Assembly (NCBI GenBank): GCA_947473045.1
Contig: CANJCO010000018.1
Span: 1 to 64,000 of the forward strand
Reading direction: 5' to 3'
Length of the DNA: 64,000 nucleotides
From: Myxococcales bacterium
GTDB lineage: Bacteria > Myxococcota_A > Polyangia > Polyangiales > Polyangiaceae
The translations under genes and the position numbers were made by a program. Shown piece after piece: positions 8,410 to 12,149 of this stretch (position 1 is its first letter; every line of letters starts with the position of its first letter). Below the pieces are notes generated by a model that saw nothing but the letters and a program-made list of their open reading frames with translations, was not told the origin of the DNA and did not search any database.

Positions 8410-9951
8410 TCAGCCGCGCGACAGGAGCGCGACGCCCGTCATCGCATCGGGCTTGTCGAGACCCATGAGCGCAAGCATCGTCGGAGCCACGTCGCAGATC
8501 CGCCCGCCTGCTGCCACGCGCGCTTCCGGGTCGGCATCGTTGACGTAGATGAGCGGGACCGGGTTGGTGGTGTGGGCCGTGTGCGGCTGCCCGGACGCCG
8601 GGTCTTTCATTTGTTCGCAGTTGCCGTGATCGGCGGTGATGATCGCCGCCCCGCCTGCCCTGCGGGTCGCGGAGACCACACGCCCCACGCAACCGTCGAC
8701 GACCTGCACTGCAGCGATGGCGGCTCCGAGCATGCCGGTGTGACCCACCATGTCGGGGTTGGCGAAATTCACGACGACGAAGTCGAACTTTCCCGAGTCG
8801 ATCGCGGCTACCACCGCGTCGGCCACGGCGACGGCGCTCATCGCCGGGCGCTCATCGTAAGTGTCGACGTCTTTGGGCGAGGGAATCATGACGCGCGACT
8901 CGCCCGCGAAAGGCTCCTCCCGACCGCCGTTGAAGAAATACGTCACGTGGGCGTATTTCTCGGTCTCCGCGCAGCGAAACTGCGTCTTTCCGGCGCGCGC
9001 GATGACCTCGGGAAAGATGTCGACCAGCGGCTCTTTCGGGAACGCGACGGGCAAACCCAGCGACGGGTCGTAAGTCGTCATGCATGCATAATGCACAAAT
9101 GGCCGCCCGGCGCCTCCGCGGTCGAAGCCGTCGAAGTCGCCCGTGGCGAGCGCCCGGGTGAGTTCGCGCGCGCGGTCGGGTCGGAAGTTGAAATGCAGCG
9201 CGGAGTCGCGGCTCGCCGAGGCGCCCGCGTAGTCTCCCACCACGAACGGCTCAACAAACTCGTCTGTCTTCCCCGCAGCGTACGAGGCCGCGATGCCGGC
9301 CAGCGCGGACGGGTACCTGCGGGCCTTTGCATGCGTGATGGCGTCGAACGCGCGCTGCACCCGTTCCCAACGGTTGTCGCGATCCATGGCGAAATAGCGC
9401 CCCGAAACCGTACCGATGACGCCCTTGCCCGCGAGTCCGCGCTCGAGCGCCTCGATGAACGCCGGCGCCGTTCCCGGCTGCACATCGCGGCCGTCGAGAA
9501 AAGCATGCACAATACATAAAACACCAGCGGCGCTCGCGACGTCGATGAGCGCGAGCAGGTGCGTCAGCAAGCTGTGAACGCCGCCGTCGGACACGAGCCC
9601 GAGCAGGTGCAGCTTGCCTCCCGCGCGCTTCGCTTCGGCTGTCGCGGCGGCGACAGCTTCGTTGGTGCCGAGCGATCGGTCGAACACAGCGTTGTCGATG
9701 CGCGAGATGTCCATCATCGCGATGCGGCCGGCTCCGAAATTCAAATGGCCGACCTCGCTGTTGCCCATCTGCCCGGGCGGCAGGCCCACGTCGGGACCGC
9801 TGGTGCCGATCACGCCATGCGGGAAGCGCGCGCTGAGGGCGTCGAGCTCCGGAGTCGCGGCCATGCGCACGGCGTTGTCGGCGCGCTCTGCCCGCTCGCC
9901 GAAGCCGTCGAGGATCACCAAAACCATCGGCCGAACCGGACCAGGCTGCAT
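8410..9951 (-). CDS. gpmI: 2,3-bisphosphoglycerate-independent phosphoglycerate mutase
   Basis: This enzyme interconverts 3- and 2-phosphoglycerate in glycolysis and gluconeogenesis using two Mn2+ ions. At 513 residues it is full length for the alkaline-phosphatase-superfamily iPGM. Visible sites: LVILDGFGER near the N-terminus (metal Asp 15), GNSEVGHLN with the phosphorylated Ser 65, VSDGGVHS, HAFLDGRDV, NFRPDRARE, NFANPDMVGHTG and ITADHGNCE. It is the first gene of a minus-strand run, followed after 6 bp by a Ser/Thr kinase, which suggests co-transcription though not a shared pathway. The start MQPGPVRPMVLVILDGFG is at the usual distance from the first motif. Confidence 0.97.
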   Translation of the reverse strand: MQPGPVRPMVLVILDGFGERAERADNAVRMAATPELDALSARFPHGVIGTSGPDVGLPPGQMGNSEVGHLNFGAGRIAMMDISRIDNAVFDRSLGTNEAVAAATAEAKRAGGKLHLLGLVSDGGVHSLLTHLLALIDVASAAGVLCIVHAFLDGRDVQPGTAPAFIEALERGLAGKGVIGTVSGRYFAMDRDNRWERVQRAFDAITHAKARRYPSALAGIAASYAAGKTDEFVEPFVVGDYAGASASRDSALHFNFRPDRARELTRALATGDFDGFDRGGAGRPFVHYACMTTYDPSLGLPVAFPKEPLVDIFPEVIARAGKTQFRCAETEKYAHVTYFFNGGREEPFAGESRVMIPSPKDVDTYDERPAMSAVAVADAVVAAIDSGKFDFVVVNFANPDMVGHTGMLGAAIAAVQVVDGCVGRVVSATRRAGGAAIITADHGNCEQMKDPASGQPHTAHTTNPVPLIYVNDADPEARVAAGGRICDVAPTMLALMGLDKPDAMTGVALLSRG

Positions 9952-10018: not shown

Positions 10019-10678
10019 TCAGGCCGCTCGAAGCCGCCTGCGCGTCGCGATGAGCGCCAACGCCGCGAGGGCGATCGCTCCCCATGAGCCCCTGCTGCCC
10101 GCTACTGTGCTGCAGCCGCCGCCGCCGACCTGTGACTCGAGTACCTGAGGTGCGAGGATGATCGCGCCGCTCACAACGCGGCCCTCATACGTGTAGCTGA
10201 CCTGATTTCCGCTGCCCGCGAGATCGCCGATCGCCGTAGCCGTGAACCCGCTCGTGCCCGAGGCGTCGGCGCTGTATCCGTATTGATAGTATTGCGGCCC
10301 GAGCATTTCGAACTTCAGGCAGGTCCAGCCCGTGAACGAGTCGCCGGTTCGCCAGTCGGTCGGTCCCGAGACATATTTCGCGGCGCTCGGCACCGCGGCC
10401 GGAACGTTGTTGGCGGCCGAAAGGCACAGGCTCTGCGTGATTCCCGAGCTGCCTCCCGGCGTGAGGTAGGCGCCCGACATCTTGTCGCGAAAATACGACG
10501 CGCTCGCGAGCTTGCCGATCTGCGTCACGCTGTTGGTCGCCTCGGCGGTCTTCGCCCGAAACATGTATTGCCTAACGCCGGAGATCGCGACCACCGCAAG
10601 AATGCCGAGAACGGCCACGGTGACCATGAGCTCGATCAGCGAAAACGCGCGCGCCCGACCTGCGAATTGAGCTTTCAT
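10019..10678 (-). CDS. type IV pilin-like protein with MYXO-CTERM-like tail
   Basis: 219 residues. The N-terminus has a prepilin signal (MKAQFAGRARA, then FSLIELMV and a long hydrophobic helix), with Ala rather than Gly before the cleavage site. The middle is a pilin/pseudopilin beta domain rich in Tyr and Gly (GPQYYQYGY) with two cysteines. The C-terminus carries an extra tail: GGGGCST, a hydrophobic segment (WGAIALAALALIA) and a final RRRLRAA. That arrangement matches the MYXO-CTERM sorting signal of Myxococcota surface proteins. The upstream gene is a close paralogue without the tail. The frame extends to 10750, but the ATG at 10678 gives the normal short leader. It may be a minor pilin or a surface-anchored variant. 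Confidence 0.85.
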   Translation of the reverse strand: MKAQFAGRARAFSLIELMVTVAVLGILAVVAISGVRQYMFRAKTAEATNSVTQIGKLASASYFRDKMSGAYLTPGGSSGITQSLCLSAANNVPAAVPSAAKYVSGPTDWRTGDSFTGWTCLKFEMLGPQYYQYGYSADASGTSGFTATAIGDLAGSGNQVSYTYEGRVVSGAIILAPQVLESQVGGGGCSTVAGSRGSWGAIALAALALIATRRRLRAA

Positions 10679-10764
10679 GAACGCCCTCGAAAACGGCCAC
10701 GGCACACCGCGGCCAGCGAACTGCGCCAGCGCCTCTGCGGGCGCGAGCAAAGCGCGCTGCGCGG

Positions 10765-11325
10765 TTACTGGTTACGAAGCGGCGTGGGCGCGAGAATGAC
10801 CCCGCCGCTGACGATTCGGCCTTCGTAAATGAACGAAGTGAGGTTGCCGCTTCCGCCCAGATCGCCCACGGCGATCGCGCTGAAACCAACGAGACCCGAG
10901 GCGTCGGCGGTGTAGCCGTACTGATAGTACTGCGGCCCGAGCATCTCGAACTTCAAGCACATCCAGCCGGTAAACGTGTCGCCCGCGAGCCAGTCGGAGG
11001 GGCCGGACACGTACTTGGAGCCCGCCGGCACCGCGACCGGGACGTTGTTCGCAGCGCTGAGGCAAAGCGCCTGCGAAAACCCGGATTTGCTGCCGGGCAC
11101 AATGTAAGCGCCCGACATTTTCTCGCGATTGTACGACGCGACGGCGAGCTTGCCGATCTGCGTCACCGAGTTGGTCGCCTCCGCCGTCTTCGCGTTGGCG
11201 CGGTACTGAACCGCTCCGCCGATCGCGACGACAGCGAGAATGCCGAGCACGGCAATCACGACCATGAGCTCGATGAGCGAGAAAGCTCGCGCGCGAACTT
11301 TCGCTTGAAGATTGAGGCTGCCCAT
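10765..11325 (-). CDS. type IV pilin-like protein
   Basis: 186 residues. A 14-residue basic leader ends RARA and is followed by FSLIELMVVIAVLGILAVVA, the prepilin peptidase site and assembly helix; Glu at mature position 5 is present. The globular part contains LCLSAANNVP, WMCLKFEMLGPQYYQYGY and YEGRIVSG, all nearly identical in the downstream gene, so the pair is a tandem duplication. It ends at LAPTPLRNQ with no membrane tail. It is probably a type IV pilin or a general-secretion pseudopilin; no assembly genes are nearby. The gap to the next gene start is 86 bp. The stop lies just inside the spurious upstream extension of the downstream pilin frame. Confidence 0.88.
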   Translation of the reverse strand: MGSLNLQAKVRARAFSLIELMVVIAVLGILAVVAIGGAVQYRANAKTAEATNSVTQIGKLAVASYNREKMSGAYIVPGSKSGFSQALCLSAANNVPVAVPAGSKYVSGPSDWLAGDTFTGWMCLKFEMLGPQYYQYGYTADASGLVGFSAIAVGDLGGSGNLTSFIYEGRIVSGGVILAPTPLRNQ

Positions 11326-11432: not shown

Positions 11433-12149
11433 ATGCCTTGGAAGTGGGTCACGATTCGAGGTCAGCGCGTGCTGGCTCGAGCGCACGTCGACGGCTCGCT
11501 GGCCGACGAAGCGGGCCGCGTCGAGATTCGCTACAAGCTCGGCGACCCGCGCGCCTACCGCGCAGCCGTTCGTAACCTCGGGCCTGCGGGCGACGAGCTG
11601 CTGCCCGACGATGCATGTCCGGCCGGCGAAGAGGCTCCGCCGAAGGCCGCCGCGAAGCTCAAGGCGAGCGCGGCCGCGCCCACGTCTCACATCGTGCATC
11701 ACGTCGACGCGTTCGTGGCGTACACCGACGGCGCTTGCAAGGGCAATCCAGGCAACGCTTCGGCGTCGTGCATCGTCGTCGCGCCCGACGGCAGCGTCAC
11801 CGAGGAGGCCGTCTACCTCGGCCACACCACGAACAACGTCGCGGAGCTCACCGGCGTGGCGATCGCCCTCGCGATCGTGCCCCGCAGCGCGAAGGCCATC
11901 GTCCACACTGACAGCAGCTACGCGATCGGCGTGCTGTCAAAGGATTGGAAAGCCAAAGCGAATCAGGAAATCATCGCGAAGATAAAGGCTGAGCTCAAGG
12001 GTCGACCGGTTGAGTTCGTGCACGTGCGCGGCCACTCGGGCATTCCCCTCAACGAACGCGCCGATGAGCTCGCCAACATCGCGATCGCGGACGGCAAATC
12101 GAGCAAGGTCGTTCGTCCCGCGCCCAGGGCGCACGCGCAAGCGCCGTGA
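11433..12149 (+). CDS. rnhA: ribonuclease HI with N-terminal extension
   Basis: 238 residues. The C-terminal ~145 residues form a type I RNase H domain that cuts the RNA strand of RNA-DNA hybrids. The catalytic carboxylates are visible: YTDGACKGNPG (D99), VAELTG (E138), HTDSSY (D160) and ERADELAN (D211), plus H201 in RGHSG. The N-terminal ~90 residues are not part of the catalytic fold. They begin PWKWVTIRGQRVLARAHVDG and end in an Ala/Lys-rich linker (KAAAKLKASAAA). This is neither the short bacterial RNase HI nor an obvious hybrid-binding domain, and may be an accessory nucleic-acid-binding region. The stop overlaps the GTG of the next gene by 4 bp. Confidence 0.9.
   Translation: MPWKWVTIRGQRVLARAHVDGSLADEAGRVEIRYKLGDPRAYRAAVRNLGPAGDELLPDDACPAGEEAPPKAAAKLKASAAAPTSHIVHHVDAFVAYTDGACKGNPGNASASCIVVAPDGSVTEEAVYLGHTTNNVAELTGVAIALAIVPRSAKAIVHTDSSYAIGVLSKDWKAKANQEIIAKIKAELKGRPVEFVHVRGHSGIPLNERADELANIAIADGKSSKVVRPAPRAHAQAP

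Follow-up and report, generated by a model that had tools for sequence, protein, structure and literature searches.

Can a single type IV pilin carry a prepilin processing site at one end and a MYXO-CTERM sorting signal at the other, and what would such a protein do? The question is raised by two adjacent genes in the window, the whole 64,000-nucleotide stretch of Myxococcales DNA analyzed here (GCA_947473045.1, contig CANJCO010000018.1). Both genes lie on the minus strand as a same-strand tandem separated by 86 bases (10679..10764). The first, pil1 (10765..11325), encodes a type IV prepilin of 186 amino acids that ends in LAPTPLRNQ without a C-terminal tail; the second, pil2 (10019..10678), encodes a type IV prepilin of 219 amino acids that continues into a MYXO-CTERM tail. 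The most plausible start of pil2 is the ATG at 10678, which stands behind a GAGGG, rather than the TTG at 10750 given by a mechanical list of open reading frames (ORFs), and the gene has no internal stop or frameshift.

A preliminary description of this DNA had attributed the pair to duplication, and the 72% identity between the two proteins agrees with that origin. It had also placed the tail (GGGGCST, a hydrophobic stretch, and RRRLRAA) in the downstream copy only, and this is the case: pil1 ends in LRNQ. Divergence between the two genes is considerable (dN 0.25, dS 1.09, NG86 method), so the duplication is not recent and constraint on both copies is apparent; the resulting dN/dS of about 0.23 describes the pilin pair only and is uninformative on the tail. 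In 123 of 138 pilin-domain ORFs the last residue is D or E, with ETNPDE and NPEE as frequent endings; the 3′ end of pil1 (window 10765..10785, minus strand) departs from this and encodes LRNQ instead of the acidic ETNPDE of most relatives. At the 5′ end of pil2 (window 10640..10764, minus strand), the leader peptide QFAGR has a second, in-frame copy ahead of the ATG, possibly through a small duplication.

The N terminus of pil2 follows the prepilin pattern: a short basic leader, MKAQFAGRARA (10646..10678, minus strand), with Ala at −1, then Phe at +1 and Glu at +5 (FSLIE) at the head of a hydrophobic α1. The TIGR02532 model scored 25.4 bits (cutoff 16.3; 28.3 bits for pil1) and PF07963 scored 26.0 bits (cutoff 21.2), the latter being over its cutoff in pil1 as well. 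Ala at −1 was present in 8 of 51 family signals, which were picked by a pattern allowing Gly or Ala at that position. The hydrophobic core of α1 is kept along with Phe+1 and Glu+5, and residues F12, L14, E16, L17, and M18 are invariant across 14 pilins. By sequence comparison, the family profile matches solved pilins through α1 (best 1.2e-11), and the pilin head of pil2 contains two cysteines (85 and 120). The closest relatives of pil2 are major-type pilins, with four paralogues in the same genome at 57–61% and one at 51%. The 61% paralogue is located on contig C45 just after a sigma-54 response regulator gene, an arrangement that resembles the pilR-pilA order and from which we infer the gene name.

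The tail occupies residues 185–219 (10022..10126, minus strand) and consists of GGGGC189ST, a hydrophobic stretch at 199–212, and RRRLRAA. The cysteine, transmembrane helix, and Arg-rich end thus sit at the very end of the protein, as MYXO-CTERM requires. The Cys189 codon (10112..10114, minus strand) is the presumed lipidation site, a role carried over from the passages of PMC11980579 on Myxococcus xanthus. The MYXO-CTERM model TIGR03901 (cutoff 20) scored 24.0 bits in a six-frame search of the genome and 23.6 bits on the last 49 residues, although only 19.0 bits on the whole protein, so automatic annotation may miss the tail; a second MYXO-CTERM model, TIGR03382, gave 13.2 bits, under its cutoff of 15.85. 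A profile built from 21 further tails in the source genome scored the pil2 tail at 29.4 bits, compared with a best score of 9.2 bits among 1,706 other C termini, and the sorting-signal layout proposed in the preliminary description holds up on these scores. When the tail was shuffled 20,000 times, no version reached the pil2 score with this profile (maximum 17.0 bits), and together the profile and the shuffles lead us to reject an origin by chance or low complexity. None of 14 control genomes had a TIGR03901 match over the cutoff. A single-cysteine signature like that of pil2 was counted on the alignment in 11 of the 21 other tails. Judged from sequence, pil2 is a paralogue of the family's major-type pilins with an acquired, genuine MYXO-CTERM tail.

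Three candidate sources of the tail were considered. Simple stop loss into a GC-rich spacer is unlikely because the best of 408 post-stop frames from 137 pilin-domain ORFs scored 7.0 bits. An older MYXO-CTERM gene beside the neighboring gpmI was rejected after a six-frame search of 25 gpmI loci of relatives, some of them overlapping (best 10.0 bits, in a 30-amino acid frame). No donor was recognized within the genome when the tail was compared by blastn with 29 of its MYXO-CTERM loci (best E 0.008 over 29 bases).

How unusual is the combination? The preliminary description would have been contradicted by a tail of this type being widespread in ordinary pilins, and among the pilins searched it is not. 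Our search profile combined the pilin end with the MYXO-CTERM tail and covers one pilin family, and the number of candidates scored in each genome was capped. Among the matches listed (the best approximately 150) from 108 genomes of the family, no pilin other than pil2 was open through the tail, the others ending before it or crossing a stop. The result was the same among the best approximately 150 matches listed from 377 genomes of the phylum, which overlap with the 108, and no orthologue of pil2 with the tail was found among the matches listed from either set. The tail was present in 1 of 138 pilin-domain ORFs read, pil2 itself. A contig search with a pilin alignment returned 80 loci, of which nine were read, all with ordinary ends; an earlier contig search for such pilins without the alignment gave no matches.

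The converse search, for prepilin signals at MYXO-CTERM loci, found none in 76 loci from 12 genomes and none in 29 loci of the source genome; the best score was 3.2 bits, compared with 43.6 bits for pil2 (1,925 ORFs scanned, whatever their tail). The 76-locus census covers open frames of about 100–700 amino acids from about 150 matches listed of 258 in the 12 genomes, to the exclusion of longer, shorter, and unlisted ones, and the N termini of long proteins in the source genome lie partly outside the scanned MYXO-CTERM loci. Tail assignment in 103 loci (the 76 plus 27 from the source genome, some overlapping) reached at least 10 bits by our own profile in 82 and did not in 21.

No account of a pilin joined to a MYXO-CTERM signal was known to the preliminary description, and none was found in the open literature searched, where the available passages of papers containing both terms do not join them. 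The same was true, within the passages available, for PEP-CTERM with prepilin, C-terminal-transmembrane pilin, and lipidated type IV pilin; the passages of PMC4858521 on C-terminal helices concern S-layer-like proteins. Both halves, prepilin and MYXO-CTERM, are known; their combination is new as far as searched and a single case so far.

Enzymes that could process each end of pil2, as the preliminary description envisaged, are encoded in the source genome. The myxosortase MrtC (G000:C9:40618) matched NF040594 at 273.7 bits (cutoff 195) and is one of six CPBP-type proteins, and there are two prepilin peptidase domains. MYXO-CTERM matches in the genome number 18 over the TIGR03901 cutoff and 33 at E ≤ 10. 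Pilus machinery is represented by PilB (792 bits; cutoff 676), PilQ (429 bits; cutoff 284), and two PilT-family ATPases, and type II secretion by GspE (643 bits; cutoff 630) and GspD (481 bits; cutoff 351). None of the pilus gene clusters found includes the pil1-pil2 pair.

Structure prediction was of limited use. The first AlphaFold2 model of pil2 was poor (pLDDT 44.6), and a second run with 11 sequences reached low-to-moderate confidence (mean pLDDT 63.2). The second model has one long N-terminal helix (14–67), a β head, a loose linker (186–200), and a separate helix (199–218); a Foldseek search with it gave no match at E ≤ 0.001. The model fits basic cytoplasmic ends and a periplasmic head, but is too weak for a claim about the fold.

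We put about an even chance on pil2 being a tethered pilin that is cleaved at its N and C termini and either anchors or terminates a filament or remains fixed in the membrane; its processing, topology, tethering, and role are all predicted. The precursor would form a hairpin in the inner membrane, with α1 at the N terminus and the sorting helix at the C terminus, both basic ends in the cytoplasm and the head on the periplasmic side. Maturation would involve a prepilin peptidase cut after Ala11, attachment of a lipid to Cys189, and loss of the sorting helix through MrtC. The mature protein would then have two membrane attachments, the hydrophobic α1 and a C-terminal lipid, and could not be handled as a free subunit. 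Most likely it would be a scarce subunit: with its α1 in the base of a filament and its lipid holding it at the membrane, growth would end there or the filament would be anchored; alternatively, the tethered pil2 may simply stay fixed in the membrane.

What is established for a tethered pilin is the anatomy, the presence of the enzymes in the genome, the rarity, and a lineage-specific locus. Several observations count against it. The tail is without an orthologue among the genomes searched and may be a neutral gain, TIGR03901 on the whole protein is 1 bit under its cutoff, the pair is outside the pilus gene clusters found, and Foldseek was null. In addition, PMC11980579 ascribes N-terminal signal peptides to each of the 35 MYXO-CTERM proteins of M. 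xanthus; a prepilin signal departs from this and may be incompatible with the pathway. We think that a tethered subunit is the likeliest explanation, followed by surface display, then no function, and then a lipid-bearing tip.

The pilin head of pil2 is also found on proteins with other means of membrane attachment. In L114 (G000:C86, source genome) and L117 (G001:C849, from a genome of the same genus), an ordinary transmembrane helix replaces the prepilin signal; these two were searched against Pfam and had no match over the cutoff. Further heads with transmembrane helices were seen in many other genomes of the family (L271, L272, L276, L277, L279, L283, L284, L285, and L290), and in most of all these proteins a Pro-rich start precedes the helix. 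L115 (G000:C130:310-1677, minus strand) is a protein of 455 amino acids with a lipoprotein-like start (LMLAACGS), the pilin head at its C terminus, and no Pfam match, and the head is likewise at the C-terminal end of long proteins in L273, L274, L275, and L281. In L280 (G003:C412), a frame of 420 amino acids, the pilin head is accompanied by a prepilin-like signal that scores 41 bits and by a long insert rich in Gly and Asn. Because this head is also retained on proteins anchored in other ways, tethered pilin heads recur in this family. From sequence, this recurrent swap makes the MYXO-CTERM version less odd and points to a wider pattern, in which the head may be useful outside the fiber. The difference is that pil2, unlike its re-anchored relatives, has an intact α1.

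These relatives bear on the possibility that pil2 is displayed at the surface without a fiber, which we consider unlikely. The pilin part would then serve only as an export signal plus head; after lipidation and the MrtC cut, the protein would be extracted from the membrane and the type II system would put the head outside, as for TraA. Passages of PMC11980579 have M. xanthus MYXO-CTERM clients using the type II system, GspD and GspE are present here, and the same head stands on L115, behind a lipoprotein-like start, and on L114 and L117, behind a transmembrane helix, where polymerization via a prepilin α1 is impossible. In pil2, however, Phe+1 and Glu+5 are in place, and a hydrophobic α1 would keep it anchored in the inner membrane.

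The surroundings of the pair indicate a locus particular to this lineage. The phosphoglycerate mutase gene gpmI (8410..9951, minus strand; TIGR01307, 633.4 bits) begins 67 bases after pil2 on the same strand, and an RNase H-like gene, rnhA (11433..12149, plus strand), flanks the pair on the other side. G001, a genome of the same genus, has rnhA, tpr, gpmI, and a kinase gene all in one orientation, uninterrupted by a pilin, and lacks an orthologue of the pair; in the source genome, rnhA and tpr are inverted relative to G001, and the pilin pair is at the junction. Among the relatives with both rnhA and gpmI in view, all five (G001, G004, G006, G009, and G015) lacked a pilin match between these neighbors. 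Because the G001 locus is without a pilin, either the arrival of the pair at this place postdates the divergence from G001, or G001 has lost it.

Another explanation is an accidental fusion, in which one copy received its sorting tail by recombination and the tail has no role and is neutral or decaying. The single occurrence among the matches listed, the absence of a pilin at this place in G001, and the loss of the usual acidic end from pil1 are all in its favor. Against this, the tail fits the other tails of the genome very well (29.4 bits), the frame is free of stops and frameshifts, and the low dN/dS points to constraint on the pair, although it is silent on the tail; we regard an accidental fusion as improbable. 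Least likely of all, and very doubtful, is a lipid-bearing tip subunit, in which pil2 would join the priming complex and end at the pilus tip with its lipid as a hydrophobic adhesin: α1 is intact and the relevant passages of PMC12288465 describe a tip complex of minor pilins and PilY1 in M. xanthus, but pil2 is nearest to major-type rather than minor pilins (57–61% to the four paralogues), and the lipid would need pulling out of the membrane.

Several known systems come close to pil2. According to PMC11980579, TraA of M. xanthus has its MYXO-CTERM cleaved by the myxosortase, a step that needs the cysteines, and the model runs from Cys lipidation through cleavage to transport by the type II system. 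Like TraA and other M. xanthus MYXO-CTERM proteins, pil2 has a Cys signature, a transmembrane helix, and an Arg-rich end, with a cognate CPBP protease (here MrtC) in the genome. Those 35 proteins are described in that source as having ordinary signal peptides, a trait that may not be defining; pil2 has a prepilin signal instead, followed by a pilin head. Atypical architecture also occurs in MXAN_5598, where, according to the passage in PMC11980579, a MYXO-CTERM lies inside a fusion of an adhesin and an outer-membrane barrel, not a pilin. Reminiscent of that internal motif is L005 of the source genome (G000:C25:33759-33866, plus strand), in which a MYXO-CTERM match of 25.9 bits inside the ORF leads directly into a second stretch resembling a signal peptide and then a barrel-like domain whose last residue is Phe.

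Another close system is the type IVa major pilin PilA, which shares with pil2 the prepilin signal, an α1 with Phe+1 and Glu+5, and two cysteines in the head. By comparison with PilA, pil2 adds a C-terminal sorting tail that is predicted to be lipidatable, and the Myxococcus PilA model NF041775 scored only 36.4 of 400 bits, below its equivalog cutoff. With its two processing signals, pil2 offers a clean test of what a membrane-held subunit does to a type IV pilus (stop, anchor, or decorate it) and of whether clients with a prepilin signal as their entry route are acceptable to a myxosortase.

A base subunit of this kind has a parallel in the sortase-assembled pili of Gram-positive bacteria, in which a SpaB-type base pilin is held at the envelope via a C-terminal sorting signal, with the help of a sorting enzyme. 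The likeness is one of analogy, not kinship: the fold, the enzyme (sortase), and the target (cell wall) are unrelated, and the pil2 tail sequence contains no LPXTG-type motif. The type IV counterpart of that sorted base pilin would be a pilin with a covalently lipidated C terminus that anchors or terminates the pilus of a Gram-negative cell, with the prepilin and myxosortase pathways joined in one protein; in our estimation this is quite unlikely.
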